Assembly: GCF_000518985.1 (NCBI RefSeq)
Contig: NZ_JAEQ01000004.1
Location: 257,782-321,781 of the forward strand
Length of the DNA stretch: 64,000 nucleotides
From: Chelativorans sp. J32
Lineage (GTDB): Bacteria; Pseudomonadota; Alphaproteobacteria; Rhizobiales; Rhizobiaceae
Reading direction: 5' to 3'
The position numbers were made by a program, and so were the translations under genes. Of this stretch, positions 1 to 18,755 are shown piece by piece. Positions within the stretch are counted from its first letter, which is position 1. Every line of letters begins with the position of its first letter. The notes beneath the pieces are model-generated. The model was not told where the DNA came from. It did no database searches and saw only the letters and a list, made by a program, of their open reading frames with translations.

Positions 1-1
1 G

Positions 2-862
2 GCCCGCCGCACTGCGCTCGGCATATTCCGGCTGCCTGCCACTGTCTTTGCGGCCCTCATATTCGTGCTGTCCGTCGGCCTGCCGATCCTGACACTTTTC
101 CTCTCCACGGTGATGAAGCTTCCGGCGGATTTCTCATGGTCCAACTTCACCCTCGACTATTGGATCGGCCGCAATCTCGATACGGTGGCGCTGCGTGAGG
201 GCGTGCTCCTGACGCCCGATCTCTGGCAGGCGGCCTGGAATACGTTGAGGATCGTGGGCACCGCTTCAGTGTGCTCCGGACTGCTGGGGCTTCTCGTTGG
301 CTACGTGGTGGTTCGCACGCCGGTACGGCCGCTTTCGGGCTTCCTGCGGCAAGTGACGTTCCTGCCGTATCTCGTTCCTGGCATCGCCTTTGCCGCGGCT
401 TACCTCTCGCTCTTTGCGGTCCAGCGCGGCCCCATTCCCGCGCTTTACGGCACCGCGGCGATCCTGATGCTGGCCTTGGTCGCCGACCAGATGCCATACG
501 CCTCGCGTGCCGGAATTTCCGCCATGATGCAGCTCGGCAAGGACCCCGAGGAGGCGGCACAGATCGCAGGCGCGGGGTGGCTGCGGCGCATGATCGCCAT
601 TATCGTGCCGATCCAGAAGGGCGCGCTGGTCACGGGCGTCCTGCTGCCGTTCATTTCCGGCATCAAGGGGCTGAGCCTCTTCGTCATATTGGCGGTACCG
701 GCAACGGACGTGCTCACCACCTATTCGCTCCGTCTGGTCGATTACAATTACACGCAGGCCGCCAATGCCGTGGTCCTGATCATCGCCGGCATCGCGTATT
801 TCGGGACCGTTCTCGCCCAGAAACTCACAAGAACCAATCTGGCCGACGGACTAGGGAGCTGA
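2..862 (+). CDS. ABC transporter permease, iron(III)/sugar-phosphate type (5' end outside window)
   Basis: The reading frame is open from the window edge, so only the C-terminal 286 residues of an inner-membrane permease are seen. About six hydrophobic segments are visible, and an EAA-type coupling loop (EEAAQIAGAGWLRRM) sits near the middle, the site that docks on the ATPase. The visible length fits the second half of the fused two-domain permeases of the FbpB/AfuB type. The gene ends 9 nt before the ATPase gene, with a GGGAGG ribosome site in the gap, so both are one operon. The substrate is probably that of the three binding proteins downstream. The family is often annotated as ferric iron uptake, but the neighbourhood suggests a phosphorylated organic solute (inference). 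Confidence 0.88.
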   Translation, partial: ARRTALGIFRLPATVFAALIFVLSVGLPILTLFLSTVMKLPADFSWSNFTLDYWIGRNLDTVALREGVLLTPDLWQAAWNTLRIVGTASVCSGLLGLLVGYVVVRTPVRPLSGFLRQVTFLPYLVPGIAFAAAYLSLFAVQRGPIPALYGTAAILMLALVADQMPYASRAGISAMMQLGKDPEEAAQIAGAGWLRRMIAIIVPIQKGALVTGVLLPFISGIKGLSLFVILAVPATDVLTTYSLRLVDYNYTQAANAVVLIIAGIAYFGTVLAQKLTRTNLADGLGS

Positions 863-871
863 GGGAGGATC

Positions 872-2041
872 ATGCCTACCATTGCTTTGCAGAACGCAGA
901 CAAGAGCTATGGCGCAAACGCTGCCAACGCCGTGTCCAACCTCAACCTGGAGATCGGCGACGGCGAGTTCATGTGCCTGCTGGGTCCCTCCGGCTGCGGC
1001 AAGACCACCACGCTCAGGATGATTGCTGGCCTTGAGCACCTTTCGGCGGGCCGGATCGCCATCGGCGACCGGGTGGTTGATTGCGTCGCCTCCGGCACCT
1101 TCGTGCCGCCGGAGCGGCGGGAGATGGGGCTGGTGTTCCAAAGCTACGCGCTCTGGCCGCACCTGACGATCGAGCGCAATATCGATTTCGGCCTGCGTCT
1201 GCGCCGTGTCTCCAAAGCTGAGCGGGAGGCCTGCGTGGACCGCGTGATGCGCACGCTGGGCATCGAGCAGTATCGCAAACGCTACCCGTCGCAGCTCTCA
1301 GGCGGCCAGCAGCAGCGCGTGGCATTGGCGCGCATGCTGGCAGTAAACCCGGATGTTCTGCTCCTGGACGAACCGCTCTCCAATCTCGACGCGCGGCTGC
1401 GCCTCGAAATGCGCGCCGAGCTCAAGCGGCTGCACGAGGAATTCAAGACAACCATCGTTTTCGTCACCCATGACCAGTGGGAGGCGATGACGCTTGCCAC
1501 CTTGATCGCCGTCATGAGCGAGGGCGAGCTGCAGCAAGTGGGCACGCCGAACGATATCTACGACCGGCCGGCCAACCGGTTCGTCGCGGAATTCGTCGGC
1601 AGCCCGCCGATCAACATCATCGAGATGGACACGGGGCCGGCAACCGGTCTCACAGCGCTCGCGCAGGACTATCTCACCAGTCACTACCCGCAGCTTACGG
1701 AGATCGGCTCGGTCGGACTGCGGCCGGAAGCGATCGCAGCCGTCTCCAGCAGGGCCGAATTGCCCGCAGGTCACCTTTCCGGGGAGATGAGGATTTCGGG
1801 AATTCTGCCGACAGGGGGAAGCTGGATATTGGAGCTCGAGGCTGCTGACGCAAAGCTGTTCCTGACAATCCACCAGCCCCCCCGATTCAGGGTGGGCGAT
1901 ACAGGCTTTTTCCACGTCGCGCCTCAAGCACTTCATGTGTTCGATCGACAGGGCAGGCGATCGGCAATGGCCGATGAGCAACTGCGTCCAAGCGAGTTGG
2001 GTACGGTCCGGAAGATGGCCGGCTGCAGGGAAGTCGCCTGA
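872..2041 (+). CDS. ABC transporter ATP-binding protein, FbpC/PotA type
   Basis: 389-residue cytoplasmic ATPase that powers the adjacent permease. Walker A GPSGCGKTT is at residues 38-46, followed by the signature LSGGQQQR, Walker B VLLLDEPLSNLDA and the H-loop VFVTHD. The C-terminal third (about 240-370) matches the position of the TOBE-like regulatory domain of the FbpC/PotA/MalK group. ATG start with GGGAGG just upstream. The gene lies between the permease and the first of three binding proteins, so it should serve all three. The exact substrate cannot be read from the ATPase. Confidence 0.93.
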   Translation: MPTIALQNADKSYGANAANAVSNLNLEIGDGEFMCLLGPSGCGKTTTLRMIAGLEHLSAGRIAIGDRVVDCVASGTFVPPERREMGLVFQSYALWPHLTIERNIDFGLRLRRVSKAEREACVDRVMRTLGIEQYRKRYPSQLSGGQQQRVALARMLAVNPDVLLLDEPLSNLDARLRLEMRAELKRLHEEFKTTIVFVTHDQWEAMTLATLIAVMSEGELQQVGTPNDIYDRPANRFVAEFVGSPPINIIEMDTGPATGLTALAQDYLTSHYPQLTEIGSVGLRPEAIAAVSSRAELPAGHLSGEMRISGILPTGGSWILELEAADAKLFLTIHQPPRFRVGDTGFFHVAPQALHVFDRQGRRSAMADEQLRPSELGTVRKMAGCREVA

Positions 2042-2065
2042 CGAGGCGGCAGAAGGAGGAGGAGA

Positions 2066-3217
2066 ATGAAGGTAAATACACGAAGATGGGCCGGCTTTGC
2101 CGCTGGGCTGGGAGCGGCGGCATTGCTTTCAGGAACGAGCGCGTCGCCGGCCCGGGCGGAGGAGGCCTGGGCGCCGGAGAATTTCAGCCTCGATGCGCTC
2201 GTAGAGGCCGCACGCGCCGAGCCGCCGATCACCGTCTATGACAGCACAGGCAAGATCGTCGAGATCGCTGACGCCTTCACGGAGAAATACGGCGTCAAGG
2301 CAACTGGCTCGAAGGTTTCGAGCGGTGCGCAGATCGAGCTGCTCGTCCGCGAGGGGCAGGCCGGCAATATCGTTGGCGACGTGTCCGTTGTACAGGACGT
2401 CCCGCCCGCAATGGCACAGCTCTTTCCTCAAGGACTTGTCGAGAGCTGGTTGCCGCCGGACCTCGCCAAGTCAATCCCAGAGGCCTTGCAGGACCCGCTG
2501 GTCGTCGTGTCCTCGCCGAATATATGGGCCTACAACACCGAGGTTTACGACAAATGCCCGGTGGACAATATCTGGGCGCTTACCGACAAGGCGTGGACGC
2601 GCAAGATCGCCTTTCAGGATCCGCTCGGCAAGCCTTCCTACACCGACTGGTTCAACCAGATGGAGATGCACCACGACGCTGCGGTTGCTGCAGCCTACGA
2701 AGCTTACTATGGAAAACCGCTGGAGACCGACGAGGCGAGCGCCACCCGTGCCTGGGTGAAAGCGATCGCGCAGAACGCGCCGCTGCTCACGGATTCCGAC
2801 TCTGCGGCAGGCGAGGCGGTCGGTGCCAAGGGGCAAGCCGAGCCCTTCCTCGGTCTGGTCTCGACAGCAAAGTTCCGCGACAACGCGCCGGACGGCCTTC
2901 AGCTCGGCATCTGCACGGGCGTGAAGCCGTTCTCCGGCTGGATGTATCCCGGCATCGGGGTCGTTTCGACGAAGACAGACAGCCCGAATGCAGCACGCCT
3001 CTTCCTTCATTATCTGATGACGGAGGAGGGGATTTCTCCGCAGACGGTCGATGGCAAGATCTCGTCCAACACCGAAGTGCCCATGCATCCGGATGAGCCC
3101 TCGGGTGTGGGTGAGATTCTCGACCAGCTAATGCCCTACGCCTTATCCACGGCGCTGCAGGATTTCGACCTGCGGCAGGATTGGCAGGATTTCTGGCGCG
3201 TGAACTATACGCGCTGA
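2066..3217 (+). CDS. Periplasmic solute-binding protein 1 of iron/sugar-phosphate-type ABC transporter
   Basis: 383 residues with a signal peptide (hydrophobic 11-25, probable cleavage after Ala31, ...ARA/EE). It belongs to the FbpA/AfuA-like family 1/6 binding proteins and delivers solute to the permease upstream. The start has a strong AGGAGGAGG ribosome site. It is clearly paralogous to the next two genes: all share EPPITVY near the mature N-terminus, TGKIV, DWFNQME, TDSPNAARLF and a QDWQD ending. Two Cys are conserved in all three (CPV before NIW, and a Cys in the LGIC/LGLC segment) and may form a disulfide. In AfuA-type proteins the ligand is a hexose phosphate rather than iron; whether that holds here is inference. 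Confidence 0.92.
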   Translation: MKVNTRRWAGFAAGLGAAALLSGTSASPARAEEAWAPENFSLDALVEAARAEPPITVYDSTGKIVEIADAFTEKYGVKATGSKVSSGAQIELLVREGQAGNIVGDVSVVQDVPPAMAQLFPQGLVESWLPPDLAKSIPEALQDPLVVVSSPNIWAYNTEVYDKCPVDNIWALTDKAWTRKIAFQDPLGKPSYTDWFNQMEMHHDAAVAAAYEAYYGKPLETDEASATRAWVKAIAQNAPLLTDSDSAAGEAVGAKGQAEPFLGLVSTAKFRDNAPDGLQLGICTGVKPFSGWMYPGIGVVSTKTDSPNAARLFLHYLMTEEGISPQTVDGKISSNTEVPMHPDEPSGVGEILDQLMPYALSTALQDFDLRQDWQDFWRVNYTR

Positions 3218-3317
3218 CCGACGTGTCCTGGCGGTGAGCCGCCGGGCGCCAGCAGAAGAAGACAATACAGGGAGGATGCGGGGAGTTGCACGCGCAATCC
3301 CCGTACAAGGAGATGCT

Positions 3318-4445
3318 ATGACCCGCTTAAATGCAGGATGCGTGCAGAGCCTCATCATAGCGGCTGGACTTCTCTCCGGCACGAGCGCTGCGGTGCTGGC
3401 CGAGGAAAACTTCAGCCTCGATGCGCTGATCGAAGCGGCGCGCAAGGAGCCGCCGATCACGGTCTATGACAGCACCGGCAAGATCGTCGATATGGCGGAG
3501 GCTTTCAGCAAGAAATACGGAGTGCAGGCGACCGGTATAAAAGTCTCGGCCGCCGCGCAGTTCGAACAGATCATACGTGAGGCGCAGGCCGGCAACGTAC
3601 AAGGCGACGTGGCGATGCTGACCGACACGCCGGCCACCGTCGCGCAATTGTTGCCGCAGGGCTTCCTCGAAAGCTGGTTACCGCCGGACATGGCAGGCAA
3701 GATTCCGGCCGAATTCCAGAAGCCGCTCGCGGTGACCACGAATGCCAATGTCTTCGCTTACAATACCGAAGCTCACGACAGCTGCCCTGTCACCAATATC
3801 TGGCAGCTCACGGATCCGAAATGGGAGGGCCGCTTCGCCATGGTCGACCCTCTCACCAAGCCGAACTACGCGGATTGGTTCAATCAGATGGAGACCTATG
3901 GCGACGAGGCGCTGAAGAAAGCGTATGAGGATTATTACGGCGAGCCTCTGAAAACGGAAGAGGCGAGTGCAACGGCTGCCTTTGTGAAGGCGCTTGCCGA
4001 GAGCGGGCCGTTGCTGACCGACGGCGATGACGCCGTTTCGGAGGCTGTGGGCGCATCCGGGCAGGAGGATCCATTCTTCGGATTGTTGAGTTCGGCGAAG
4101 TTCCGCGACAATGCCGATTCCGGCTATGTGCTTGGCCTTTGCAAGGAAATGATGCCGTGGGTGGGGTGGAGCTATACGAAGCTCGCTCTCATTGCGGCCG
4201 GTACGGACAGTCCCAATGCGGCTCGGCTCTTCGTTCACTATGTGCTGACACGCGAGGGGATCGAGCCGCAGATGGTGGATGGAAAGATCCCTACCAATAC
4301 TGAAGTCAAGATGCCGGATGACGAGCCGTCCGGGCTGATGTCCGTTGTCGACAAGGTCTTCGGCTACAACGCTGCCAGCGCACTCGATGACTGGGACTCG
4401 CGCCAGGATTGGCAGGATTTCTGGCGTGTCCATTACAAGCGCTGA
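3318..4445 (+). CDS. Periplasmic solute-binding protein 2 (tandem paralogue)
   Basis: 375 residues from the ATG at 3318, which has AAGGAG 5-6 nt upstream and begins a normal signal peptide (cleavage near VLA/EE). An in-frame upstream start would add 28 non-signal residues and is rejected. The protein matches its two neighbours over the full mature length, with the same two Cys and the same motifs, but differs in the region after the second Cys (CKEMMPWVGWSY against CTGVKPFSGWMY), which may line the binding cleft. It probably feeds the same permease/ATPase with a related solute. Located 100 nt after binding protein 1. Confidence 0.91.
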   Translation: MTRLNAGCVQSLIIAAGLLSGTSAAVLAEENFSLDALIEAARKEPPITVYDSTGKIVDMAEAFSKKYGVQATGIKVSAAAQFEQIIREAQAGNVQGDVAMLTDTPATVAQLLPQGFLESWLPPDMAGKIPAEFQKPLAVTTNANVFAYNTEAHDSCPVTNIWQLTDPKWEGRFAMVDPLTKPNYADWFNQMETYGDEALKKAYEDYYGEPLKTEEASATAAFVKALAESGPLLTDGDDAVSEAVGASGQEDPFFGLLSSAKFRDNADSGYVLGLCKEMMPWVGWSYTKLALIAAGTDSPNAARLFVHYVLTREGIEPQMVDGKIPTNTEVKMPDDEPSGLMSVVDKVFGYNAASALDDWDSRQDWQDFWRVHYKR

Positions 4446-4509
4446 TGCCGAAGCGCGCGCCATGACGGCCCATCCCTCAGGAACAGCGACGAGCGGGAGG
4501 AGAACCGAA

Positions 4510-5634
4510 GTGAAAAGGATCTTACACTGCACCACCGGCCTTGCAGGCTTGGCGCTGCTGCTGGCCGTGGTCGCTCCCTCTATGAGCCAGCCGGCAACGG
4601 CATTCGATCTGGAAGCTCTCGTCGAAAAGGCTCGGAGCGAACCGCCCATCACCGTCTACGCCGTCACAGGCAAGATCGTCGAGACCGCAGAGGCCTTCAG
4701 CAAGAAATACGGTGTGACGGCGACAGGCCGTAAAGTGAACGAGGCCGAACAGATCGAACTGCTCATCCGTGAGGGCAGGGCGGGCAACGTAGTGGGGGAC
4801 GTCTCGGTGGCTGCGGATGTGGCGGCTATCGCCGGCCAGCTGATCCCATCCGGCTTGGTACAGAGCTGGGTGCCTCAGGATCTGGCCGGCGACATTTCGC
4901 CCGCTGCCCACGATCCGCTGGTTATCGTCACCGATCCGCACGTGTGGACCTACAACACCGAGGTTTTCGATGCCTGTCCTGTCAGCAATATCTGGCAGCT
5001 CACCGAACCCGCTCATGCGCGCAAGGTGACAATGCTCGATCCACTGGTGAAACCGAATTACGCCGATTGGTTCAACCAGATGGAGATGCATCACGACGCT
5101 GAAATGGCGCAGGCATACGAGGACTATTTCGGCAAACCCCTTGAGACGGAGGAACGCAGCGCCACCGCAGCCTGGGTGAAGGCCTTCGCGCAGAACCAGC
5201 CACTCCTTGCCGATTCATCCGCCGTCGCCGAGGCGATCGGCGCGCCAGGCCAGAGCGAACCCTTCTTCGGGATCGTCTCCACGGCCAAATATCGCGACAA
5301 CGAGGCTCACGGATACAAGCTCGGCATCTGCGCCGATATGCAGCCTTTCGCAGGCTGGCTCTATCCCGGCCTTGGCATGATTGCCTCTGGTACCGACAGT
5401 CCGAACGCCGCCCGCCTCTTCATCCGTTATCTCCTGACGGAAGAAGGGATCGCGCCGCAGACGATCGACGGCAAAATATCGGCGAATGGCTCCGTGCCCA
5501 TCCACGCGGAGGAGGCATCCGGGATCGGCAAACACCTAGACCGGCTGATGGCGTTCGAGATGAAAACGGCAATCGACGATTTCGACAACCGGCAGGATTG
5601 GCAGGATCTCTGGCGCTCCAATTATTCCCGCTAG
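4510..5634 (+). CDS. Periplasmic solute-binding protein 3 (tandem paralogue)
   Basis: 374 residues from a GTG at 4510, chosen because GGGAGGAG lies just upstream and a signal peptide follows (LAGLALLLAVVAPSM, cleavage near the ATA/FDL region). The longer in-frame ORF starting at 4345 overlaps the previous gene and lacks a leader. Like the two genes before it, it is an FbpA/AfuA-type binding protein with conserved Cys in DACPVSNIW and LGICADM. The Tyr pair present as YYG in copies 1 and 2 reads YFG here, so an iron site built on adjacent tyrosines at this position would not be shared. It is the last transport gene; the phosphatase genes begin 39 nt on. Confidence 0.91.
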   Translation: MKRILHCTTGLAGLALLLAVVAPSMSQPATAFDLEALVEKARSEPPITVYAVTGKIVETAEAFSKKYGVTATGRKVNEAEQIELLIREGRAGNVVGDVSVAADVAAIAGQLIPSGLVQSWVPQDLAGDISPAAHDPLVIVTDPHVWTYNTEVFDACPVSNIWQLTEPAHARKVTMLDPLVKPNYADWFNQMEMHHDAEMAQAYEDYFGKPLETEERSATAAWVKAFAQNQPLLADSSAVAEAIGAPGQSEPFFGIVSTAKYRDNEAHGYKLGICADMQPFAGWLYPGLGMIASGTDSPNAARLFIRYLLTEEGIAPQTIDGKISANGSVPIHAEEASGIGKHLDRLMAFEMKTAIDDFDNRQDWQDLWRSNYSR

Positions 5635-5673
5635 CCCTCGGAACCGAGGAGCTCGTTTCAATAAGAGAACACG

Positions 5674-6546
5674 ATGACCAATCTCACCACGCTCCCGCGT
5701 GCTTCCGTCACCGAGGCTACCCTGTCGCGCCATCTGCGTGAGGTAGCCATTCGAGCAGCGAGATCCGTGCAACCCTATCTCGTCAATGCATTCCGTTCCC
5801 CGATGGTGATCGATACCAAGCGCGACTTCCATGACGTCGTGACGGTGCACGATAAGGAAACCGAGAAGCGGCTGATCGATTTCATTCTGTGTGAGGTTCC
5901 GGATTCTTCGATCCTCGGCGAGGAGGGCGGCGCGACCGGCCAGGGGTCGATCCACTGGTACATAGATCCGATTGACGGGACGGCGAATTTTGCGCGCGGC
6001 CAAGGCTTCTGGTGCGTCTCGATCGGGGCGGTCGTGGAAGGTGAAATCATCGCGGGTGCAGTTCTCGATCCTGTTGCCGATCTCACGTTTAGCGCCGACG
6101 CGGAAGGAGCTTGGCTCGGCTCTGCACCACTACGCTCCCGCTCCACGCCGCGTGAAAGCGACGCCATCTTGATTACCGGCTATCCAGTTGAGCGAGATTT
6201 CCGTTCAGATGGGCGCGAGGCGGCGCTCGATCATTTCGGCACCCTGGTCGAAGCCTTCTCCACGCTGAGGAGGCCGGGCAGTTCGGCCCTCAGCATCTGC
6301 TCAGTTGCGGCTGGCTGGTGCGATGCAGCAGCGGGCTTCGGCGTCAATCCGTGGGACGTTACCGCCGCAATCCTGATCCTGAAGCAGGCCCGGGGGACCT
6401 ACATGCCCCTGGCTCTTCACAAGCCGCCGGCGACGCCCGATTTCGCCTGTCCCGGATATGTCGCGCTGGGGGAGGGCGCCAATTACCCGACACTGATGAA
6501 TGTTGCGCGCCTCGTGTCGGAAACCCGGGCGAAAGCCGCAAAATGA
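5674..6546 (+). CDS. Inositol monophosphatase family protein 1
   Basis: 290-residue Mg-dependent sugar/inositol phosphatase of the IMPase/CysQ/FBPase fold. The metal-site motifs are intact: GEE at 82-84, DPIDGTANF at 98-106 (ligands Asp98 and Asp101), and NPWDVTAA with Asp228. No signal peptide, so it acts in the cytoplasm on phosphate esters. It follows the third binding protein by 39 nt and precedes a second family member by 36 nt, which suggests that the transported solute is, or becomes, a phosphate monoester. Family members hydrolyse inositol phosphates, fructose bisphosphate, histidinol phosphate or PAP; the substrate cannot be chosen from sequence. Confidence 0.92.
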   Translation: MTNLTTLPRASVTEATLSRHLREVAIRAARSVQPYLVNAFRSPMVIDTKRDFHDVVTVHDKETEKRLIDFILCEVPDSSILGEEGGATGQGSIHWYIDPIDGTANFARGQGFWCVSIGAVVEGEIIAGAVLDPVADLTFSADAEGAWLGSAPLRSRSTPRESDAILITGYPVERDFRSDGREAALDHFGTLVEAFSTLRRPGSSALSICSVAAGWCDAAAGFGVNPWDVTAAILILKQARGTYMPLALHKPPATPDFACPGYVALGEGANYPTLMNVARLVSETRAKAAK

Positions 6547-6582
6547 CATCGCAAGAACCATCCAGAAAAGAGCAAGCATGCA

Positions 6583-7416
6583 ATGACGGCCCTATCTCCT
6601 ACCTTGAGCGCCGAGTCCGGCCCTACTCCTTCCGATCCGGGACTGGACAGGCGAGAAGCCTTCCTGATCGACCTTGCCCGCGAGGCCGGAAGGCTCGCGC
6701 AGCGCGCATTCTCCGGCGCTGAGACGCTTGCCTACCGCATGAAGGGGCCGCAGGACTTCCTGACGGTAACAGACGCGGCGGTGGAGGAACTGGTGCAAAA
6801 CCGCCTTCAATCGGCGTTTCCCGAGGATGGTTTTCTCGGCGAGGAATCCGGCGGTGTTCTCTCCCCACAGATCTGGGTGGTGGATCCCATCGACGGTACG
6901 GCCAATTTCGCCCGCCGCATCCCGCACTACTGCGTCTCCATCGCCTTCGTCTCGCACGGGGTGATCGCGCTGGGAGCCGTTTTTGATCCTGCCCACGACG
7001 AGCTTTACTTCGCACGGCAAGGCAGGGGTGCCACGCGCAACGGAAAGCCAGTCCGTGTTTCGGATGTTCGCGACGCACACGCTGCATGCGTCGAACTCGG
7101 CTGGTCCACCCGCGTGCCCAACAGCGACTATCTCGACGCATTGGCAGGCATTTTGAAGGCGGGGGCCAATGCGCGCCGCGGCGCCACCGGCGCCCTGGGG
7201 CTTGCTTATGTCGCGGATGGTCGTTCGGATGGATATGCGGAGTTGCACATGCAGCCCTGGGATTGCCTTGCCGGCCTCCTCCTGGTCGAGGAAGCGGGCG
7301 GAAGGGTGAGCCCGTATCTAGAAAACGGTGGCCTGGCAAAGGGCGGTCCCGTGCTAGCCGTTGCTCCCGGGGCTGCAGATCTGATGCAGTCCGCCACCGG
7401 AATCGCGCTCAAATAG
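6583..7416 (+). CDS. Inositol monophosphatase family protein 2
   Basis: 277 residues, second IMPase-fold phosphatase in tandem. Motifs: GEESGG at 86-91, DPIDGTANF at 101-109 (Asp101, Asp104) and QPWDCLAG with Asp227. It shares the fold and metal sites with the preceding gene but the proteins are clearly divergent outside the motifs, so this is either an old duplication or two recruited family members with different substrates. It is the last gene of the plus-strand operon; the LacI-type gene converges on it with only 6 nt between stop codons. Confidence 0.92.
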   Translation: MTALSPTLSAESGPTPSDPGLDRREAFLIDLAREAGRLAQRAFSGAETLAYRMKGPQDFLTVTDAAVEELVQNRLQSAFPEDGFLGEESGGVLSPQIWVVDPIDGTANFARRIPHYCVSIAFVSHGVIALGAVFDPAHDELYFARQGRGATRNGKPVRVSDVRDAHAACVELGWSTRVPNSDYLDALAGILKAGANARRGATGALGLAYVADGRSDGYAELHMQPWDCLAGLLLVEEAGGRVSPYLENGGLAKGGPVLAVAPGAADLMQSATGIALK

Positions 7417-7422
7417 AGGCCG

Positions 7423-8454
7423 TCATTTGGGCCGGACCGACTTGCGCCAGACAGGATCGGCCTGGAAGCGCACCGGCTCGTGGACAATCCGTGAATCAGG
7501 CTGATGATCGATTTGGCTGACGATATGCGTTGCGATTTGATCGATCGGTTGCCGGAAGGTCGTCAATTCGTAAGACGACCAGCCGGCCTGCTCGATATCG
7601 TCGAAGCCTACCACGCAAAGTTCCTCGGGGATATTGAGGCCGAATTCGTTTCGAGCGGCATCCATGAAGCCACAAGCAAGAAGGTCGGTGACGCAAAATA
7701 CACCGTCCGGCCGGTCGGAGCGGCTGAGGAGCAGGCGGGCGATCTCGGCGCCCGAAGCATAGGCGGTAGGGCCGAACCGCGTCACGCGGACTTCCATTCC
7801 AGCTTCCTTCGCCGCTTCGACGAATGCCCTTTCGCGCCCGGAAACGCTAGCGCTGCCTACGTCGGATGCAACGACGGCGAGCCTTTCGCAGCCCGCGCGC
7901 CGGAGCATGTGGAAGGCCTCACGGGCCGCGGCGCGGTTGGCGACGATCACGGTTTCGGGGCCGGGCACGAGCTCTTCGCGGTTGACGAGTATCACGTGCT
8001 GCCCGTTGTTGAGGCACGTTTCGATGAGCGAGGCTTTGGGCTGTCCGGAAAGCACGATCGTAGCATCGGCCCTGTAGTGCAGGGTTTGCCGCAACGCGCT
8101 TTCCACGCTGTCCGTCTCGCCGGAGGTGTTGATCACCATAGCCACCTTGTTTGCGAGTTGCAGCCGTCGCGTGAGGACCTCGATCATCTTCGACTGGTAT
8201 GGCGTGGCGATGTCGGTCACGACGAGCGAGACGATGTTGCTGCGGTCGCTGATCAGCCCCCGGGCAAGGTGATTCACGTGATAGCCGAGTGCCTCGGCGG
8301 CCTCGAGCACCTTTTTCCGCGTGGCTTCGGAGACGCTGGCTCCATCCGTGAATGTACGCGAGACGGCCGAGCGCGAAACACCGGCACGCTCGGCAACCTG
8401 CTGCGCACTCACGAAGGATCTGCTCTGGAGCCTGCTTCCCTTCGCAGCCGTCAT
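7423..8454 (-). CDS. LacI-family transcriptional regulator
   Basis: 343 residues from the ATG at 8454, chosen because AGGAAG sits 5 nt upstream; in-frame starts at 8472 and 8568 lack this. The N-terminus holds the LacI helix-turn-helix (VSAQQVAERAGVSRSAVSRTF, about 15-35) and hinge helix (LGYHVNHLARGL); the rest is a periplasmic-binding-like effector domain. LacI-type regulators usually sense sugars or sugar phosphates. The gene sits between the ABC/phosphatase operon and the phosphatase/Na-Pi pair. A perfect palindrome at 8665-8682 and a degenerate copy at 8486-8503 lie in its upstream region, so it probably controls itself and the divergent genes. Its effector may be the imported solute. 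Confidence 0.93.
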   Translation of the reverse strand: MTAAKGSRLQSRSFVSAQQVAERAGVSRSAVSRTFTDGASVSEATRKKVLEAAEALGYHVNHLARGLISDRSNIVSLVVTDIATPYQSKMIEVLTRRLQLANKVAMVINTSGETDSVESALRQTLHYRADATIVLSGQPKASLIETCLNNGQHVILVNREELVPGPETVIVANRAAAREAFHMLRRAGCERLAVVASDVGSASVSGRERAFVEAAKEAGMEVRVTRFGPTAYASGAEIARLLLSRSDRPDGVFCVTDLLACGFMDAARNEFGLNIPEELCVVGFDDIEQAGWSSYELTTFRQPIDQIATHIVSQIDHQPDSRIVHEPVRFQADPVWRKSVRPK

Positions 8455-8485
8455 GTTCTTCCTGTTGAGCATTGTCTGCTGTGTC

Positions 8486-8503
8486 TTTGCACGGGTGTGC
8501 GCT
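8486..8503. promoter_or_regulatory. Degenerate LacI-type operator before the LacI gene
   Basis: TTTGCACGGGTGTGCGCT resembles the perfect palindrome at 8665-8682, matching it at 13 of 18 positions, with the left arm TTTGCAC intact. It lies about 30 nt upstream of the regulator's ATG, a fitting place for autoregulation. The site is called by similarity to the better copy only. Confidence 0.4.
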
Positions 8504-8664
8504 TCTTTGCCGGCGATGAAACCACCGGACCGGAAAACTCTATAACGCGAGCCAAGCCGGGAGAGCAACCGTCCCCTTCACCATGGCGGCCCTTGCGGCG
8601 CCAACGCTATGGGATGCGAAGTGGCCAGATGCGAAGGAATTACCTCAGTCGCCGCGTTGACGCG

Positions 8665-8682
8665 TTTGCACACCTGTGCAAA
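8665..8682. promoter_or_regulatory. Perfect 18-bp LacI-type operator palindrome
   Basis: TTTGCACA-CC-TGTGCAAA, arms of 8 bp perfectly complementary around a 2-nt centre. Size and symmetry are those of LacI/PurR-family operators. It lies directly after a TTGACG -35-like hexamer and 100 nt before the phosphatase start, so binding would repress the phosphatase and Na/Pi genes. Confidence 0.6.
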
Positions 8683-8781
8683 ACAAACTATGGCGATCTG
8701 GGCTTCTGTGTTCATCCGGCTTCGAGGGGCCCATTCCGGATGGGCCCGGCAGACTCCAACCACAAGAACGAGAGACCTTTG

Positions 8782-9384
8782 ATGATGCAATTCTCACCTC
8801 GCTATGACCGCCCGGCAATAAGCCTCATCGCAACCGGATTGGGGGAGGACGGGGTGTCGCTATATCTCGGGGATTCCGAGGGCGCCCGCGACATCGCGCT
8901 GCTCAAGGAGCAGGGGATTACCACGGTGATCAATTGTGCGGTCAATCTCGACTTCAATTACGTCAATGATCCCGTGCAAAAGGAGGAGCCCGGCAAGGTG
9001 GCCGCAGGGCACGGAGTCGTGCGAGCCTACAAAATCGGCCTTATCGACGGTGAGGGCAATCCTGCGCGGATGATGCTTGCTGGCTACTACATCCTTGATG
9101 GCGCTCTGAAGCAGGTTATGCCTGAAAAGGAGAGCTATCCGCACCGTGAGCGTGGCAATGTTCTGGTGCATTGCCGGGGAGGGCGCAGCCGCTCCGTGGC
9201 GCTTGTGGCTCTTTACCTCCACAAAAATTTGCCGGAACGCTTTCCCACATTGGACGACGCACTTGCCCATGTGCGTGTCAAACGTGAATTGCGGCCCGAC
9301 GAATGGTTCGAGACGCCAAAGCCGATGCTGGTGGAGGCGGCCCGGCAAGCATCGGATGCAATCGACCTGCTGGAGGGCAAATAA
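8782..9384 (+). CDS. Dual-specificity/tyrosine-type Cys phosphatase
   Basis: 200 residues from the ATG at 8782; the in-frame ORF reaching back to 7504 is antisense to the LacI gene and is rejected. The signature HCRGGRSRS matches HCx5R with nucleophile Cys131 and Arg137; Asp89 in GLIDGEGN is a candidate general acid. The fold is that of small dual-specificity phosphatases, which act on phosphoproteins but also on phosphosugars, phosphoinositides and other small phosphate esters. It precedes the Na/Pi-cotransporter gene with no gap (its stop is followed directly by the ATT start), and an operator for the local LacI regulator lies upstream. This context suggests a small-molecule phosphate ester rather than a protein substrate (inference). 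Confidence 0.85.
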   Translation: MMQFSPRYDRPAISLIATGLGEDGVSLYLGDSEGARDIALLKEQGITTVINCAVNLDFNYVNDPVQKEEPGKVAAGHGVVRAYKIGLIDGEGNPARMMLAGYYILDGALKQVMPEKESYPHRERGNVLVHCRGGRSRSVALVALYLHKNLPERFPTLDDALAHVRVKRELRPDEWFETPKPMLVEAARQASDAIDLLEGK

Positions 9385-11037
9385 ATTTCCTCAACGCTGA
9401 TCCTGATCGATCTGCTTGGCGCCGGCGCGCTGCTCCTGTGGGGACTTCGTCTCATCAAGACAGGGATGCTGCGCGCGTTCGGCACTTCATTGCGCACCTG
9501 GATCGGACGCAGCACCAAGAACAGGATTTCCGCCGTCCTGGTGGGTATGCTTGCTACAATCGCCGTCCAATCCAGCACGGCGACGGCCGTCATCACCGCA
9601 TCCTTTGCTGCGCGCGATCTTCTTTCGGGAACGATGGCGCAAGCCGTCATGCTTGGGGCAAATGTCGGGACGGGGCTTGTTGCGGCCATCCTGTCGATGG
9701 ACCTGCATTGGCTCGCGCCTCTGATGATCCTGATCGGGGTGGCCGTATTCTTTCGTAGCCACCGCTCCCGGGGAAAGGGCATCGGCCGTTCTATCCTCGG
9801 GCTCGGGCTGATGCTTCTCGCTCTTCGTCTCCTTGGAGAGGCGACAGCACCTATTCGTGAATCGTCTCTTGTCGTCCTGATGCTGCGCGGGCTGGAGAAT
9901 GCGCCGATTTTCGCTCTGTTGTTTTCCACGGGTCTTGCGTTTCTTGCCTCGTCGAGCCTTGCCGTCGTGCTTTTCGTCGTTCTGTTGGGAAACGGCGGCG
10001 TCGTGACACCAGTTTTGGCGCTTGTGCTGGTCGCCGGTGCGAATCTCGGCGGCGCAATTCCGCCTTATCTGGCGGTCTTGCATGAAGGCGTGGAGGCAAA
10101 ACGCCTTGCTCTCACCAATCTAGCGATCCGCGCGGCGGGTGCGGTCGCGCTTACCTTCGGTGCAGCCTATGTGGCAGCGCTCGCCGCGCCATTTTGGCCA
10201 TCCACGGGAGCGCTGGCGCTTGCGGCTCATGTCGGATTTTCTCTGGCCTTGCTGCTCATCTTCCTGCCTGTTCTCGGACCGGTTACCCGGATGATGGAGC
10301 GGCTGGTGCCGTCCATGCCAGAGGATATGTTCGGTCCGCGTTATCTGGACGACAGCGCCATGGGGTCGCCGGCCATCGCGCTTTCCGCCGCGGCGCGCGA
10401 GACGCTGCGCCTGGGAGACATGGTGCGTGACATGCTGGAGGGGAGTATGCGAGCTCTTGAAACCTCGGATCCCGACATGCGCGCAGAGCTCGCCCGCATC
10501 GAGGATCAGGTCGACCGATTGCACGGCGCGATCAAGACCTATCTCGCCCGCCTCGGCCAGGAGAAACTCGACGCTGAGGACATGCAGCGCGCATCCGAGA
10601 TCATGTCCTATGCGGTCAATCTCGAACATATCGGCGACATCATCGACAGCGGGCTGTCGGATCTGGCGGCCAAGAAGGCGAAACGCAAGCTTGCCTTCTC
10701 CGCCGAAGGAATGGCCGAGATCATGGCGTTCTATCATCGCACGCTCGACATCCTGCAGATCGCACAGAGCGTCTTCCTCTCGCGCGATCCTGAGCTTGCT
10801 CGCCAGCTGGTGGGGTGCAAGGTCGATGTCCGCCGGCTGGAAGCGGAATCGGCGGAACGGCATCTTGAGCGCCTGCGCGCCCGCCGCACCGAGACGGTCG
10901 AGACCTCCGGCCTGCATCTCGATATCCTGCGCGATCTGAAGCGAGTGAACGCGCATCTTATATCCGTCGCCTATCCCATACTCGACGGCATCGGCGCCCT
11001 GAGTGACACCCGCCTCCGCCCGGCATCGGACCTGTAG
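9385..11037 (+). CDS. Na/Pi cotransporter family protein with PhoU-like C-terminal domain (probable ATT start)
   Basis: Membrane carrier of the NptA/YjbB family: two repeats of hydrophobic helices (residues about 5-310) with QSSTATA and SSSLAVVLF as the paired signature loops, then a soluble helical PhoU-like domain (about 340-550). Bacterial members move phosphate with sodium, and YjbB-type proteins export excess phosphate. The first ATG (9466) would cut off the first membrane helix (LILIDLLGAGALLLWGLRLI), which is encoded in frame upstream. The only initiator with proper spacing to the GGAGGG at 9372-9377 is the ATT at 9385, directly after the preceding stop, giving 550 residues. No ATG, GTG or TTG lies between. 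Start confidence is moderate; the family call is firm. Confidence 0.85.
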   Translation: MSSTLILIDLLGAGALLLWGLRLIKTGMLRAFGTSLRTWIGRSTKNRISAVLVGMLATIAVQSSTATAVITASFAARDLLSGTMAQAVMLGANVGTGLVAAILSMDLHWLAPLMILIGVAVFFRSHRSRGKGIGRSILGLGLMLLALRLLGEATAPIRESSLVVLMLRGLENAPIFALLFSTGLAFLASSSLAVVLFVVLLGNGGVVTPVLALVLVAGANLGGAIPPYLAVLHEGVEAKRLALTNLAIRAAGAVALTFGAAYVAALAAPFWPSTGALALAAHVGFSLALLLIFLPVLGPVTRMMERLVPSMPEDMFGPRYLDDSAMGSPAIALSAAARETLRLGDMVRDMLEGSMRALETSDPDMRAELARIEDQVDRLHGAIKTYLARLGQEKLDAEDMQRASEIMSYAVNLEHIGDIIDSGLSDLAAKKAKRKLAFSAEGMAEIMAFYHRTLDILQIAQSVFLSRDPELARQLVGCKVDVRRLEAESAERHLERLRARRTETVETSGLHLDILRDLKRVNAHLISVAYPILDGIGALSDTRLRPASDL

Positions 11038-12747: not shown

Positions 12748-13194
12748 TCAGCGCTCGCCGTCCATCTCCGCAAGCTTTTGCACGCGGCGGCGGAAATCCT
12801 CGTCGGTCGAAAACTCCGCCTGCAGGTAGGCCGTGACCAGATCCTTGGCGAGCCAGGGGCCGACGATCTGCGCGCCAATGCACATGACATTGACGTCGTC
12901 GTGCTCTACCGACTGATGGGCCGAGTGGATATCGTGACAGACCGCGGCCCGGATGCCCTTTACCTTGTTTGCAGCAATCGAGGCGCCGACGCCTGTGCCG
13001 CAGACCATGAGTCCGCGGTCGGCCTTGCCCGCGATGATCGACGAGGTGACGATTTTGGCGATGTCGGGGAAGTCGACCGGATTGGGGTCGTAGGATCCCG
13101 CGTCATGCACCTCGTGCCCCAGCGACCTGATGTGATCGATGATGGTCGCCTTGAGCGGGAAGCCGGCGTGGTCAGAACCGATGACAATGCGCAT
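12748..13194 (-). CDS. RpiB/LacA/LacB-family sugar-phosphate isomerase
   Basis: 148 residues from the ATG at 13194; a longer in-frame ORF to 13878 is antisense-like extension over the TRAP gene. Family hallmarks are GSDHAGFPLK near the N-terminus (phosphate/substrate site) and CGTGVGASIAANKVKGIRAAVC, which carries the catalytic Cys of RpiB. RpiB interconverts ribose 5-phosphate and ribulose 5-phosphate; relatives act on allose, galactose or tetrose phosphates. Here it is the last gene of a TRAP transporter operon and starts 21 nt after the DctM stop, which suggests a catabolic isomerase for the imported sugar or sugar acid rather than the housekeeping enzyme. Confidence 0.9.
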   Translation of the reverse strand: MRIVIGSDHAGFPLKATIIDHIRSLGHEVHDAGSYDPNPVDFPDIAKIVTSSIIAGKADRGLMVCGTGVGASIAANKVKGIRAAVCHDIHSAHQSVEHDDVNVMCIGAQIVGPWLAKDLVTAYLQAEFSTDEDFRRRVQKLAEMDGER

Positions 13195-13214
13195 CTTGAA
13201 GGATCTCCGGAAGG

Positions 13215-14492
13215 TTACTGGGCGATCATTCGCGGCAGCCACAACGTGAAATCCTTCGCGAAGGTGAGGATCGCGAGCGTGGTCAGCAGCGGGATGTAGA
13301 AGGGAAGCAGCGCCTTGAGCAGCTGCCGGATCGATACCTTTGCGATATCCGATACCAGGAACAGCGACAGGCCCATTGGTGGGGTCAGCAGTCCGACCAT
13401 CAGATTGAAGATGGTCACGATGCCGAGCTGGACGGGGTCGACGCCTGCCAGCACCAGCGGCGGCGCGATGATCGGAACCAGGAGCAGTGTGGCCGTCGTG
13501 GAATCCAGGAACATGCCGGCGACGAAAAAGATGAGGTTGGCGATGATGAGCAGCATCAGCGGGTCGCGCGAAAGGCCAAGGAGTGCTGCCGCGAAGGTCT
13601 GCGGCACCTGCTCCACGGCGAGGATCCAGCCGAAAAGTGCTGCGGCTGCGACGATGATGAGGATCGCGGACGAGCTGCGCGCCGTCAGCACGGCCGAGTT
13701 CCACAGGTGCTCGATGGTGAGTTCGCGGTAGAACACGGCGCTTATCACGATCACGTACATCGCCGTCATGGCCGCAGCTTCCGTCGGCGTGAAGGCGCCG
13801 TAGGTCATGCCGGCGACCATCAGCGCGGGCGCGATGATGGCGGGCAGCGCCGGCAGGAAGTCGCGAGCGACCTCCCATGGCGTCGGCCAGCGTTCGGCAC
13901 GTGGATGCTTGTGCCGGATCGCCACGATGAGCACGGTCACCATGAGGAGCACCGTGCAGACGATTGCCGGCATGATGCCCGCGACCAGCAGTTGCACGAT
14001 CGAGACGCTGGTGACCGAGCCGTAGACGATCAGCGGGATCGATGGCGGAAAGATTGGCCCGAGCGTCGCTGAAGCGCCCGTCACCGCTCCTGCAAAGGAA
14101 GGATCAAAGCCTCGCTTCTTCATCGCGTCGATCTCGATGCGGCCCAGCCCGCCGATATCGGCAAGTGCGGCGCCCGACATTCCTGAGAAGACGAGGCTGC
14201 CGAAGACGTTCACCTGTGCCAAGCCCCCCGGGATGCGGCCGACAAGCGTATAGGCGAAGCGGAATATGCGGTCGGTGATGCCCGACAGGTTCATCAGGTT
14301 GCCGACGAAGATGAACAGCGGCACGGCGACCAGCGGGAAGGAGTCGAGTGCGTAGGTGATGCGCTGCGCGAGAAGGCCGAGTGGCAGGCCCTCGATGATC
14401 ACATAGGCGATGGACGGCAGCAGGATCGCATAGACCACCGGGAAACCGAGCATGAAAAGCGCCAGGAAGGCGATGACGACTGCAAAACCCAT
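13215..14492 (-). CDS. TRAP transporter large permease, DctM type
   Basis: 425 residues, very hydrophobic, about 12 membrane helices; it is the channel-forming subunit of a tripartite sodium-coupled transporter. Typical DctM stretches are visible: FGSLVFSGMSGAALADIGGLG, GPIFPPSIPLIVYG and TPTEAAAMTAMYV. It lies 5 nt after the DctQ gene and 20 nt before rpiB, all one minus-strand operon with the FadR-type regulator at its head. Substrate unknown; context suggests a sugar or sugar acid. Confidence 0.95.
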   Translation of the reverse strand: MGFAVVIAFLALFMLGFPVVYAILLPSIAYVIIEGLPLGLLAQRITYALDSFPLVAVPLFIFVGNLMNLSGITDRIFRFAYTLVGRIPGGLAQVNVFGSLVFSGMSGAALADIGGLGRIEIDAMKKRGFDPSFAGAVTGASATLGPIFPPSIPLIVYGSVTSVSIVQLLVAGIMPAIVCTVLLMVTVLIVAIRHKHPRAERWPTPWEVARDFLPALPAIIAPALMVAGMTYGAFTPTEAAAMTAMYVIVISAVFYRELTIEHLWNSAVLTARSSSAILIIVAAAALFGWILAVEQVPQTFAAALLGLSRDPLMLLIIANLIFFVAGMFLDSTTATLLLVPIIAPPLVLAGVDPVQLGIVTIFNLMVGLLTPPMGLSLFLVSDIAKVSIRQLLKALLPFYIPLLTTLAILTFAKDFTLWLPRMIAQ

Positions 14493-14497
14493 GGGCG

Positions 14498-14965
14498 TCA
14501 GACCGCGATGTTGGTATCGGCCTGCGGCGGCTTGCGCAGGTGGAGGAGGTGGATCAGCGCGGCGCCTGCGAAGCCGAACAGCGTCGCGCCAAGAAAGAGC
14601 CAGAACGGAATCCCGAGAGTTGGTGTCGCGTTTGTGAGATTGCGCGAAATGTTGGTGGCGGTGACATAGGCGATGAAGCCCGTCGCGGCGATTGCGCTTA
14701 TCGAGATCGACCAGTTCACGATCCCGCGCAGCCGCTTCGGCATCGCGGCCTTGAATTCCCCCATCACGATGTTCTCGCCATTTTGCACCACGAGCGGGTA
14801 GGCACAGAAGATCAGGCAGATGAGCAGGAAACGCGTAAACTCCTCCGCCCCGATGAACGGCAGCACGAAGACGCCGCGCGTGATGACCTGAGCTGTCGGC
14901 ACAAGCACGAGCCCCGCCATGATGAAGACCACGAATGCCGTGAGAATGCGTTCTGGAATGCGCAT
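14498..14965 (-). CDS. TRAP transporter small permease, DctQ type
   Basis: 155 residues from the ATG at 14965, chosen because AGGGAGGG lies 5-6 nt upstream; the ORF to 15052 has no such site. Four hydrophobic helices (about 8-28, 44-65, 82-105, 125-145) match the DctQ family, which bridges the binding protein and the large permease. It contains the common FTRFLLICLIFCAYPLVVQ segment. Located between DctP (98 nt upstream) and DctM. Confidence 0.92.
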   Translation of the reverse strand: MRIPERILTAFVVFIMAGLVLVPTAQVITRGVFVLPFIGAEEFTRFLLICLIFCAYPLVVQNGENIVMGEFKAAMPKRLRGIVNWSISISAIAATGFIAYVTATNISRNLTNATPTLGIPFWLFLGATLFGFAGAALIHLLHLRKPPQADTNIAV

Positions 14966-15063
14966 CCGGTCCCTCCCTGAAGATCGCTCGGCACGCAAGG
15001 CGCCGCCGACAATTGGTCTGGTGGGCGGCCGGAGCGACGGGCGCCTCGGCACGCCAAGAAGAC

Positions 15064-16053
15064 TTACCGCACTGACTGGATCTGCTCGATGAGCGGCGTG
15101 AAATTCGGGAAATCCTGGGCGATCTGGGCGCTGACCTTCTCGCGGAACGCGTTGACGTCCAGCCCGTCGGCCTCGGTGATGATGGTCATGCCACGCCCCT
15201 TGAGCTCTTCGACAAGCTGGGCTTCACCTTCCTGTGCCAGCTGAAGCGACTTCTTCGCCTCCTCGTCCAGCACCTTCGTGATCGCCGCCCGCTGCTCCTC
15301 GGTGAGGCCCTGCCAGACCTCCTCATTGACGAACACCGCAAGCACGGCGCGCATATGCCCGGTCATCGAGATATGCGACTGCACCTCGTTGAGGTTGTTC
15401 GACGCGATCATGGTGAGCGGGTTCTCCTGGCCGACGACAACGCCCGTCATGAGAGCAGTCGGCAGTTCGGCGACCTCGACGGGGGTCGGAATGGCTCCGA
15501 AGCCCTTCACCATCGAAACCCAGAGTTCAAGCGGAACGGCACGGAACGGTTTGCCGGCAAGATCGGCGGGCGACTTCACCGGGAAATTGGACGATATCTG
15601 CCGATCGCCACGATAGATACGGCCGATGATGCGCACGCCTTGTGCGATCAGCTTCTCGTTGATCGCCTGAAGCGCCGGCGAGGTCGCCGGATCGGTTGCC
15701 TTCAAGGCATGCTCGCCGTCGCGATAGATGAAGGGCGCATTGAACACCGCAACCTCGGGTACGAGGCGGGCGAGCGAGGCAAAATCGTGGTGGCCCATCG
15801 AGATGGAGCCCATCTTGATGCCGTCGACCATCTCGGCGACGCCGCCAAGCTGGCTTGCCGGATAAACGGTCAGCGTGACCTCGTCGTTGGTGGCGGCAGC
15901 GATGCCTTTGGCCGCCTCGGCGGCGAAGATCGTCTGTATGTCGCCCTCTGCCCCCACATGCGCATATCGCAATTCGACGGCGAGCGCGGCCCCCGCCATT
16001 GCCACCAAAAAGGCGGCACCGGTCAGGGCGCGGATGATGGTCCTCTGCAGCAT
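15064..16053 (-). CDS. TRAP transporter periplasmic binding protein, DctP type
   Basis: 329 residues from the ATG at 16053; GGGAGGA lies 8 nt upstream and inside the longer ORF that begins at 16080, which supports the shorter start. A signal peptide (LTGAAFLVAMAGAALA) precedes VELRYAHVG. It has the DctP architecture, with the KPFRAVPLELWVSMVKGFGA region that in this family carries the Arg binding the ligand carboxylate. It captures the solute in the periplasm for the DctQM subunits downstream. First structural gene after the FadR-type regulator. Confidence 0.93.
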   Translation of the reverse strand: MLQRTIIRALTGAAFLVAMAGAALAVELRYAHVGAEGDIQTIFAAEAAKGIAAATNDEVTLTVYPASQLGGVAEMVDGIKMGSISMGHHDFASLARLVPEVAVFNAPFIYRDGEHALKATDPATSPALQAINEKLIAQGVRIIGRIYRGDRQISSNFPVKSPADLAGKPFRAVPLELWVSMVKGFGAIPTPVEVAELPTALMTGVVVGQENPLTMIASNNLNEVQSHISMTGHMRAVLAVFVNEEVWQGLTEEQRAAITKVLDEEAKKSLQLAQEGEAQLVEELKGRGMTIITEADGLDVNAFREKVSAQIAQDFPNFTPLIEQIQSVR

Positions 16054-16088
16054 GTCGAAAATCCTCCCTTTGTTCTTCATGCTTCTGC

Positions 16089-17906: not shown

Positions 17907-18755
17907 TCAGCCGATTGCGCCCTGACGTTCGGACTTGTTCCAGAACACAAATCTGCGCTGCGCCCACGCGATCGTGAAATAGAGCGCCAGTCCGAGAAGG
18001 CTGAGATAGAGAATGAGAGCGAACACGCGCGGCGTGTTCATCTGGCTGGCCGATTGTCTGATCAGCGCGCCAAATCCTTTGCCGCCGCCCAGGAACTCTC
18101 CTGTGATCGCGCCGGCCATCACGCCGACTGAGGCGATCTTCAGGCCGGTGAAGATGTAGGGAAGGCCGGTCGGCAGCTTGAGCCGGATCAGCGTTTGGAA
18201 TCGCGACGCTCCCATGGATTTGAACAGCATTCGCTCGTTTTCCGACGCGGCGTAAAGACCCGCAGCTGTCGCCACCACGATCGCGAAAGTAGCGATGAAA
18301 GCCGCAAGCGCCACTTTCGAGGAGATGTCGAAACCGAGCCACGCAATGAAAAGGGGCGCGAAGGCGATCTTGGGCATCGTGTCGATTGCGACGAGGTAGG
18401 GCATGACGGCCCGTTCCCCGAACTTTGTTTCTCCCACCAATACACCCAATGAAAACCCGATCGCCGCGGCTATCAGGAATCCATAGATGACGGTCAGCGT
18501 CGTGGTCCACAGCGCCCCCAACATATAGTCTCCGGTGACCAGGTTGTGCCCGACGAAGATCAGGTCGTCCAGCGTTTCCCGCGGACTGGGAAGGATGATG
18601 GGAGACACCCAGCCCATGCGCGTGACGAGGTCCCAGATCGCGACCACCGCCACGAACAGGATCGTCATGGCAAGCCATCGCGGAATTCGATCGATCAGCG
18701 CGTCCCGTTCGACCCAGACCGTATCCGCACGTTCCGTATGCGAAACATCCGTCAT
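17907..18755 (-). CDS. ABC transporter permease, nitrate/sulfonate/taurine type
   Basis: 282 residues, six membrane helices, BPD_transp_1 family of the SsuC/TauC group. The coupling loop is visible as ERMLFKSMGASRFQTLIRLKLPTGLPYIFTGLK. It starts inside the end of the ATPase gene (4-nt overlap), a sign of translational coupling. Works with the ATPase and binding protein just upstream. Substrate group by homology: sulfonates, nitrate, thiamine precursors, pyrimidines or aromatic acids. Confidence 0.93.
   Translation of the reverse strand: MTDVSHTERADTVWVERDALIDRIPRWLAMTILFVAVVAIWDLVTRMGWVSPIILPSPRETLDDLIFVGHNLVTGDYMLGALWTTTLTVIYGFLIAAAIGFSLGVLVGETKFGERAVMPYLVAIDTMPKIAFAPLFIAWLGFDISSKVALAAFIATFAIVVATAAGLYAASENERMLFKSMGASRFQTLIRLKLPTGLPYIFTGLKIASVGVMAGAITGEFLGGGKGFGALIRQSASQMNTPRVFALILYLSLLGLALYFTIAWAQRRFVFWNKSERQGAIG

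Follow-up and report, generated by a model that had tools for sequence, protein, structure and literature searches.

What does a bacterium take up through one permease and one ATPase that are served by three different receptors? The question is raised by the start of a 64,000-nucleotide stretch of the Chelativorans sp. J32 genome (contig NZ_JAEQ01000004.1, positions 257,782 to 321,781; this whole stretch is called the window below), where three tandem genes encode periplasmic solute-binding proteins (SBP1, SBP2 and SBP3). Our analysis suggests, with a probability of roughly 0.68, that they belong to a LacI-controlled ATP-binding cassette (ABC) importer for several organic phosphate esters, in which three diverged receptors collect the ligands and dephosphorylation takes place inside the cell. 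The ligands would most likely be polyol or sugar phosphates.

The genes and the regulatory site in question, referred to together as the cassette, are as follows (window coordinates):

1..862, + strand: fused two-domain ABC permease, 3' part (PF00528, E 5.8e-8)
872..2041, + strand: ABC transporter ATPase (PF00005, E 5.6e-34, and TOBE_2)
2066..3217, + strand: SBP1, periplasmic solute-binding protein, 383 amino acids, ATG start (PF13531, E 1.1e-15)
3318..4445, + strand: SBP2, periplasmic solute-binding protein, 375 amino acids, ATG start (PF13531, E 1.9e-18)
4510..5634, + strand: SBP3, periplasmic solute-binding protein, 374 amino acids, GTG start after AGGAG (PF13531, E 8.1e-13)
5674..6546, + strand: IMPase-family phosphatase 1 (PF00459, E 2.5e-45; motif IDPIDGTANF)
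6583..7416, + strand: IMPase-family phosphatase 2 (PF00459, E 6.3e-55; motif VDPIDGTANF)
7423..8472, - strand: LacI-family regulator (PF00356 and PF13377, scanned from the second codon)
8665..8682, + strand: predicted operator TTTGCACACCTGTGCAAA, a perfect palindrome between the genes for LacI and the dual-specificity-type phosphatase (DSP)
8782..9384, + strand: dual-specificity-type Cys phosphatase, DSP (PF00782, E 2.7e-10)
9385..11037, + strand: sodium/phosphate (Na/Pi) symporter with two PhoU domains (PF02690, E 7.8e-37; PF01895, E 3.1e-19; both on 9466-11037)

The setting of phosphatases, Na/Pi symporter and LacI regulator tells us more about the ligand class than any other clue. An importer combined with phosphatases suggests the uptake of intact esters followed by intracellular dephosphorylation, and the presence of several phosphatases points to esters that must be dephosphorylated first, since hexose-6-phosphate is usable without a phosphatase. 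In the scheme that we propose, the ABC importer would take up small related phosphate esters whole, and the three receptors would broaden the range of ligands delivered to the single permease and ATPase. IMPase-type and DSP-type phosphatases would strip the phosphates in the cytoplasm, the carbon skeleton would pass to catabolism, and the Na/Pi symporter would balance or expel the excess phosphate. We infer not only that the ligands are phosphate esters and that the receptors differ in ligand, but also the order of these steps and the direction of phosphate flow.

Three receptor genes behind one permease and one ATPase

The initial annotation had assigned three paralogous receptors to one permease and one ATPase, and both of these genes indeed lie directly upstream of SBP1. 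The permease gene begins 5' of the window; in the frame of its own genome it occupies L084:9794-11644, from a likely ATG at L084:9794 (about window position -988) to a stop at L084:11644 (window 862), and encodes 616 amino acids. Its best NCBIfam match is the phosphonate permease PhnU2, at 131 bits, below the cut-off of 593. For two of the receptors the assigned starts lie inside longer mechanical open reading frames (ORFs), which begin at GTG 3234 for SBP2 (assigned ATG 3318) and at TTG 4345 for SBP3 (assigned GTG 4510).

As the initial annotation had noticed, the three proteins match over their full length. SBP2 and SBP3 are 60% and 62% identical to SBP1, and 194 of 344 columns (56%) are identical between SBP2 and SBP3, a likeness that by sequence comparison is far above chance. 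They also share the Cys pair described there (C164 and C283 of SBP1); the two columns, residues 133 and 252 in the numbering of the structural model used below (model residue 1 is SBP1 residue 32), are conserved in at least 95% of a 184-row alignment. A search of the own genome returned three strong members of the family, all at this locus, and two weak and distant ones elsewhere (E 2.2e-8 and 2.8e-7). We take SBP1 to SBP3 as probable receptors of one importer with a single permease and ATPase, and predict that they dock on the shared permease.

Judging from their spacing, the receptor genes probably share one transcript. They are closely spaced, and no sigma-70-like site was found between them; throughout 800-9500, promoter- and terminator-like sites were no more frequent than in shuffled sequence. 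The gaps after SBP1 (3212-3325) and SBP3 (5630-5678) contain stem-loops with a modest folding advantage over shuffled sequence (z -1.8 and -2.1, respectively), and the gap after SBP2, taken as RNA, did not fold better than shuffles. Such stem-loops might tune the amounts of the receptors.

Divergence and distribution of the receptors

A contig scan found 195 relatives, and the analysis used the 80 best-matching places, which correspond to 78 loci; this is a selection and not a census, and flanks of 8 kb or shorter as well as contig ends may conceal genes at the fetched loci. Three receptor copies were present at 40 of the 78 loci, two at 23 and one at 15, counting ORFs of at least 100 amino acids with more than 45% identity and half of the window protein covered, a count that omits distant SBPs at L062 and L031 and includes two short pieces (207 and 289 amino acids). 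Having three receptors had been called unusual; it is in fact the commonest state among these loci, and a five-receptor importer, Ami, is described in PMC11192437.

Both in a tree of 184 proteins and in a careful tree of 62 of these rows (from 25 of the 78 loci plus the window), each window receptor clusters with orthologues from other genera. Forcing the three window proteins into one clade cost 313 log-likelihood units and was rejected by the approximately unbiased test (p-AU 9.5e-10). These trees indicate that SBP1, SBP2 and SBP3 are anciently diverged paralogues and not the product of a recent amplification. Loci with a single receptor or two receptors retain differing receptor types. The gene order varies as well, being SBP1-SBP2-SBP3 in the window and at L006 and SBP1-SBP3-SBP2 at the three-gene Pelagibacterium loci L011 and L058.

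Near the window genome the distribution of the cassette is patchy. Matches better than 1e-40 occurred in only four of 61 related genomes, a count that includes the own genome, and two of the four belong to the own genus; among 337 genomes sampled evenly from the class, four reached this level, again including the own. The cassette is also found on rhizobial megaplasmids, among them pSymB of the laboratory strain Sinorhizobium meliloti 1021, which carries a two-receptor version; in a plasmid collection, 158 records matched SBP2 at E <=1e-20, some of them only distant relatives.

Several of these loci differ in their arrangement from the window. On pSymB (L085, 2-13160) the two-receptor cassette lies between two DSP genes and is accompanied by a phosphoesterase, a Na/Pi gene and, at the edge of the locus, a piece of an IMPase gene; in a record from S. 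medicae (L086) the DSP match is split over two frames. A compact single-receptor version is carried outside the Alphaproteobacteria by a Klebsiella pneumoniae plasmid typed as conjugative (L101, 5029-10439), with relatives of the permease, ATPase, SBP, IMPase, DSP and LacI that are about 51-69% identical, and another cassette beyond that class occurs in Saccharospirillum (L033). In Microvirga subterranea a second, distant receptor (L062:455-1564, 28% identical) is encoded directly upstream of the main cassette, accompanied by relatives of the ATPase, DSP and IMPase.

Fold and predicted ligand cleft

Searched alone against solved structures, SBP1 gave no match at E <=0.01. A 50-sequence profile (alignment A2, comprising 47 of 48 chosen relatives and the three window proteins) matched the metal-citrate receptor MctA (2e-12), the glucose-6-phosphate (G6P) receptor entry 8x1a (8.4e-12) and AfuA (6.2e-10). 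An AlphaFold2 model of SBP1 residues 32-383 was confident (pLDDT 95.6). By VIA-align its top fold was MctA (Z 26.9, root-mean-square deviation (rmsd) 3.0, 311 residues aligned), tied with HitA (Z 26.6, rmsd 3.0, 295 aligned); the values were Z 24.6, rmsd 2.9 and 297 aligned for AfuA (4r72), and Z 23.2, rmsd 4.0 and 298 aligned for P5PA (6WCE). Foldseek, ranking by E-value, placed VmFbpA first. SBP1 is thus predicted to have the type II SBP fold of the AfuA superfamily. The initial annotation had proposed AfuA as the structural reference, and this stands as far as the common fold is concerned; the relationship is distant (17% identity), and model residues 205-270, the stretch expected from the aligned ranges to hold AfuA His205, contain no His in SBP1 or SBP2 and a single one, at 245, in SBP3.

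To describe the cleft we used the loops at strand ends, drawn by hand from the secondary structure of the model (28-34, 52-58, 78-84, 117-123, 153-162, 211-217, 234-240 and 258-266; 61 of 344 columns). Ten of the 16 positions that separate SBP2-type (60 rows) from SBP3-type receptors fall within these predicted cleft columns (Fisher p 5e-5, an indicative value, since the set was drawn after the divergent positions had been viewed). Pairwise, the window receptors agree at 32-35 of the 61 cleft columns, compared with 162-187 of the 283 others. The divergence had initially been placed after the second Cys; residues 253-272 do differ, and loops of the N-lobe (28-29, 54-57, 78-82 and 119-121) differ too.

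That several related ligands are imported, one of two possibilities raised by the initial annotation, is favoured by these comparisons, because the paralogues appear ancient and their type-specific differences are concentrated in predicted cleft loops. Identical clefts, which had been said to indicate simple gene amplification, were not what we found: the predicted clefts differ, and the single-clade tree is rejected. Five basic residues of the predicted cleft loops (K32, K52, K158, K238 and R240) are nearly invariant in the 184 rows. We count these conserved positive charges, together with the PhnU2 match of the permease and the distant relatives that bind phosphate esters, in favour of phosphate esters as ligands.

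Phosphatases and phosphate transporter

The DPIDGT sequence present in both IMPase-family proteins is the metal motif of IMPases, and PF00459 scores of 155.5 and 187 bits (curated cut-off 27) place them in this family with little room for doubt as far as sequence can tell. Phosphatase 2 has an inositol-1-monophosphatase as its best solved relative (E 2.1e-43), and neither protein reaches the inositol-1-monophosphatase equivalog PRK10757 (107 and 153 bits; cut-off 332). In the DSP the CX5R signature is invariant in all 33 aligned sequences (32 relatives, picked by length and redundancy from 75 found), and the model takes a DSP fold (Z up to 17.4, rmsd 2.5, 144 residues aligned); for PF00782 the window protein scores above the cut-off and two relatives below it. 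No phytase was among the 50 matches listed for the DSP model, which excludes nothing. The Na/Pi reading frame extends upstream of its first ATG (9466) as far as the base that follows the DSP stop (9385). Its start codon is uncertain; a rare one is likely, since the stretch 9385-9466 reads as a plausible protein start.

These partners recur across the 78 loci. By tblastn the permease was found at 77 of them, the ATPase at 77, a LacI relative at 76, and the IMPase and the DSP at 75 each; a calcineurin-like phosphoesterase was found at 60, the Na/Pi gene at 36 and a HAD hydrolase at 15. A search of the own genome for the calcineurin-like phosphoesterase, made with the protein of a single relative and without a positive control, found none.

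A palindrome shared within the cluster

Allowing up to two mismatches, the palindrome upstream of the DSP gene occurs at no more than two places in the 4.7-Mb genome, and each of them belongs to this cluster. The second, at L084:9590-9607 (about window position -1192), has one mismatch and lies about 187 bases 5' of the likely permease start. With up to three mismatches there were 94 matches at 45 of the 78 loci and none in shuffled sequences (a single shuffle per locus, preserving base composition only). Forty-five of these sites precede the permease, 23 LacI, 10 an IMP2-type gene and one the DSP; for the remaining 15 the assignment rule found no start of a permease, LacI, DSP or IMP2-type gene within reach. 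The palindrome is present at 40 of the 45 loci whose LacI is more than 45% identical to that of the window, compared with four of the 31 with a more distant LacI; at two loci no LacI was called. Its occurrence thus tracks LacI similarity, and the window LacI presumably binds it. The importer and the DSP-Na/Pi units are therefore probably regulated jointly. Among the matched passages of PMC4052901, which treats LacI regulons, there was no matching regulon.

What the importer may carry

Several observations weigh against the proposed scheme, or at least do not favour it. The closest solved folds also include ferric- and citrate-binding proteins, and the ligand can therefore not be read from the fold. 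Taken together, invariant columns show no enrichment in the predicted cleft (17 of 90, p 0.75), and the 12 columns that are Lys or Arg in at least 97% of rows show only a weak bias, with five in the cleft set and seven elsewhere (p 0.04). Eukaryotic protein phosphatases make up most of the 50 matches listed for the DSP model, and DSP-type enzymes are capable of acting on proteins. Finally, the palindrome was not seen at 33 of the 78 loci, five of which have a LacI more than 45% identical to that of the window.

It is possible, if tentative, that the ligands are specifically inositol (poly)phosphates. The receptors would gather different ones, derived from phytate or phosphoinositides, and the phosphatases (the IMPases, the DSP and, in relatives, the phosphoesterase) would strip them stepwise to inositol, which would enter the iol pathway. 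In favour of this reading, several distinct phosphatase folds would fit a ligand bearing several phosphates, the predicted cleft loops contain conserved Lys and Arg, and the second of the two IMPase-family genes in the operon is nearest to inositol-1-monophosphatases of the PDB; yet neither IMPase reaches the equivalog cut-off, members of this family have other substrates, and the 50 DSP matches listed included no phytase. The gene iolD scored above its cut-off in the own genome and in 36 of 38 cassette genomes (hand-picked from the genomes of the 78 loci); elsewhere it was found in 27 of 61 relatives of the window genome and in 46 of the 337 class genomes. However, the control, xylose isomerase, is equally enriched (35 of 38 cassette genomes versus 22 of 337), so the co-occurrence of iolD lends no specific support to inositol. 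Moreover, the 27 of 61 show that iolD is frequent near the window regardless. It is absent from two of the 38 cassette genomes, one being the genome that contains L006, the locus with the greatest likeness to the window; genome G013 lacks iolD.

The idea also has a wider form. We consider it doubtful that there is a widespread inositol (poly)phosphate cassette comprising up to three receptors tuned to phosphorylation patterns, cytoplasmic phosphatases and a phosphate outlet. It would be similarly speculative to suppose that this same inositol cassette, under one sugar-type repressor, is what the symbiotic megaplasmids and the Klebsiella plasmid typed as conjugative carry.

An unlikely alternative is that one ester is the ligand of all three receptors, whose differences would then lie in affinity, stability or the timing of expression. 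The predicted cleft loops do have positions common to all types (T30, G31, K32, K52, D80, D154, K158, K238 and R240), as one shared ligand would lead one to expect, but it is in these loops that the type-specific differences cluster. Loci with one or two receptors retain different types, and the close spacing of the genes, with no sigma-70-like site between them, does not favour separate expression regimes.

An importer of ferric iron would match the label 'iron ABC transporter permease' given to relatives and the fold matches to FbpA-type proteins. FbpA-type ferric receptors use an adjacent Tyr pair in the C-lobe; a Tyr-Tyr pair was found within model residues 226-248 in none of the 184 rows, which rules out iron import as the leading explanation, and the phosphatases and LacI of the cassette make it still less fitting. 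We regard it as highly improbable. Recent simple amplification for dosage, suggested by the tandem order and the roughly 60% identity, can hardly be upheld, because the tree rules it out and each receptor has orthologues in other genera.

If organic phosphates are imported, as we propose, soil and plant bacteria could use phosphorylated compounds whole, for both carbon and phosphate, and would need no secreted phosphatase that shares its product with neighbours. Since the annotation of two relatives calls their permeases iron transporters, the function of the cassette is probably mislabelled in rhizobia and related bacteria.

Other features in the window

Further along the window, a gene on the - strand (12748-13878) encodes an RpiB/LacAB-type isomerase domain that is preceded by about 230 amino acids of N-terminal extension. 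It adjoins a TRAP-type DctM/DctP transporter (13887-16080, - strand), and the two are possibly another sugar-use cluster. Two separate NMT1/THI5-type ABC import clusters lie within 9 kb (17907-20625, - strand, and 24030-26065, + strand), with a TauE-type exporter between them (22502-23332). At 28566-29954 on the + strand lies a gene whose product has both the N-terminal and the C-terminal acyl-CoA thioester hydrolase/BAAT domain.

Comparison with known systems

For the metal-citrate receptor MctA we know of no phosphatase cassette. Its structures (7F6 entries) gave the best profile match and the top fold by VIA-align, with only 20% identity to SBP1.

The AfuABC importer of hexose and heptose phosphates from Actinobacillus and Citrobacter (PMC4546632) resembles the present system in superfamily and fold, and the import of phosphorylated nutrients is likely common to both. 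AfuA is described as binding G6P, fructose-6-phosphate and sedoheptulose-7-phosphate at nanomolar affinity (PMC4546632). It differs in its low identity to SBP1 (17% over 297 aligned residues), in having one receptor where there are three here, and in its sugar-binding His205, for which SBP1 and SBP2 have no equivalent; the word phosphatase is absent from the main text of that paper. P5PA, described as binding pyridoxal phosphate at nanomolar affinity (PMC8427247; 6WCE), is alike in fold and in the probable phosphate-ester nature of the ligand, and differs in identity (14%) and operon; there too the main text lacks the word phosphatase.

The use of one permease-ATPase core by several paralogous receptors is paralleled by the Ami oligopeptide permease of pneumococcus, a peptide importer with five such receptors (AmiA and AliA-AliD; PMC11192437). 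These are about 52-60% identical according to that source, compared with 56-62% among SBP1 to SBP3, but they bind peptides and belong to another SBP family (PF00496). By analogy with Ami, several receptors would widen the range of ligands. The ancient receptor types form a natural set for studying how one permease serves different receptors.

The window symporter shares its Na/Pi domain with proteins of the YjbB/NptA type (PMC13170248). That paper discusses YjbB as insufficient for Pi import and cites a 2011 title that proposes Pi export. The window gene differs in lying beside a putative organic-phosphate cassette, with the shared palindrome and the LacI regulator.

In the open-access literature, covered here through PubMed Central titles and the beginnings of abstracts, with subscription papers outside this scope, we found no account of the cassette. 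The system as a whole is a multi-receptor variant of known ABC importers, and its new element is the conserved, probably co-regulated tie of such an importer to several phosphatases and a phosphate transporter.

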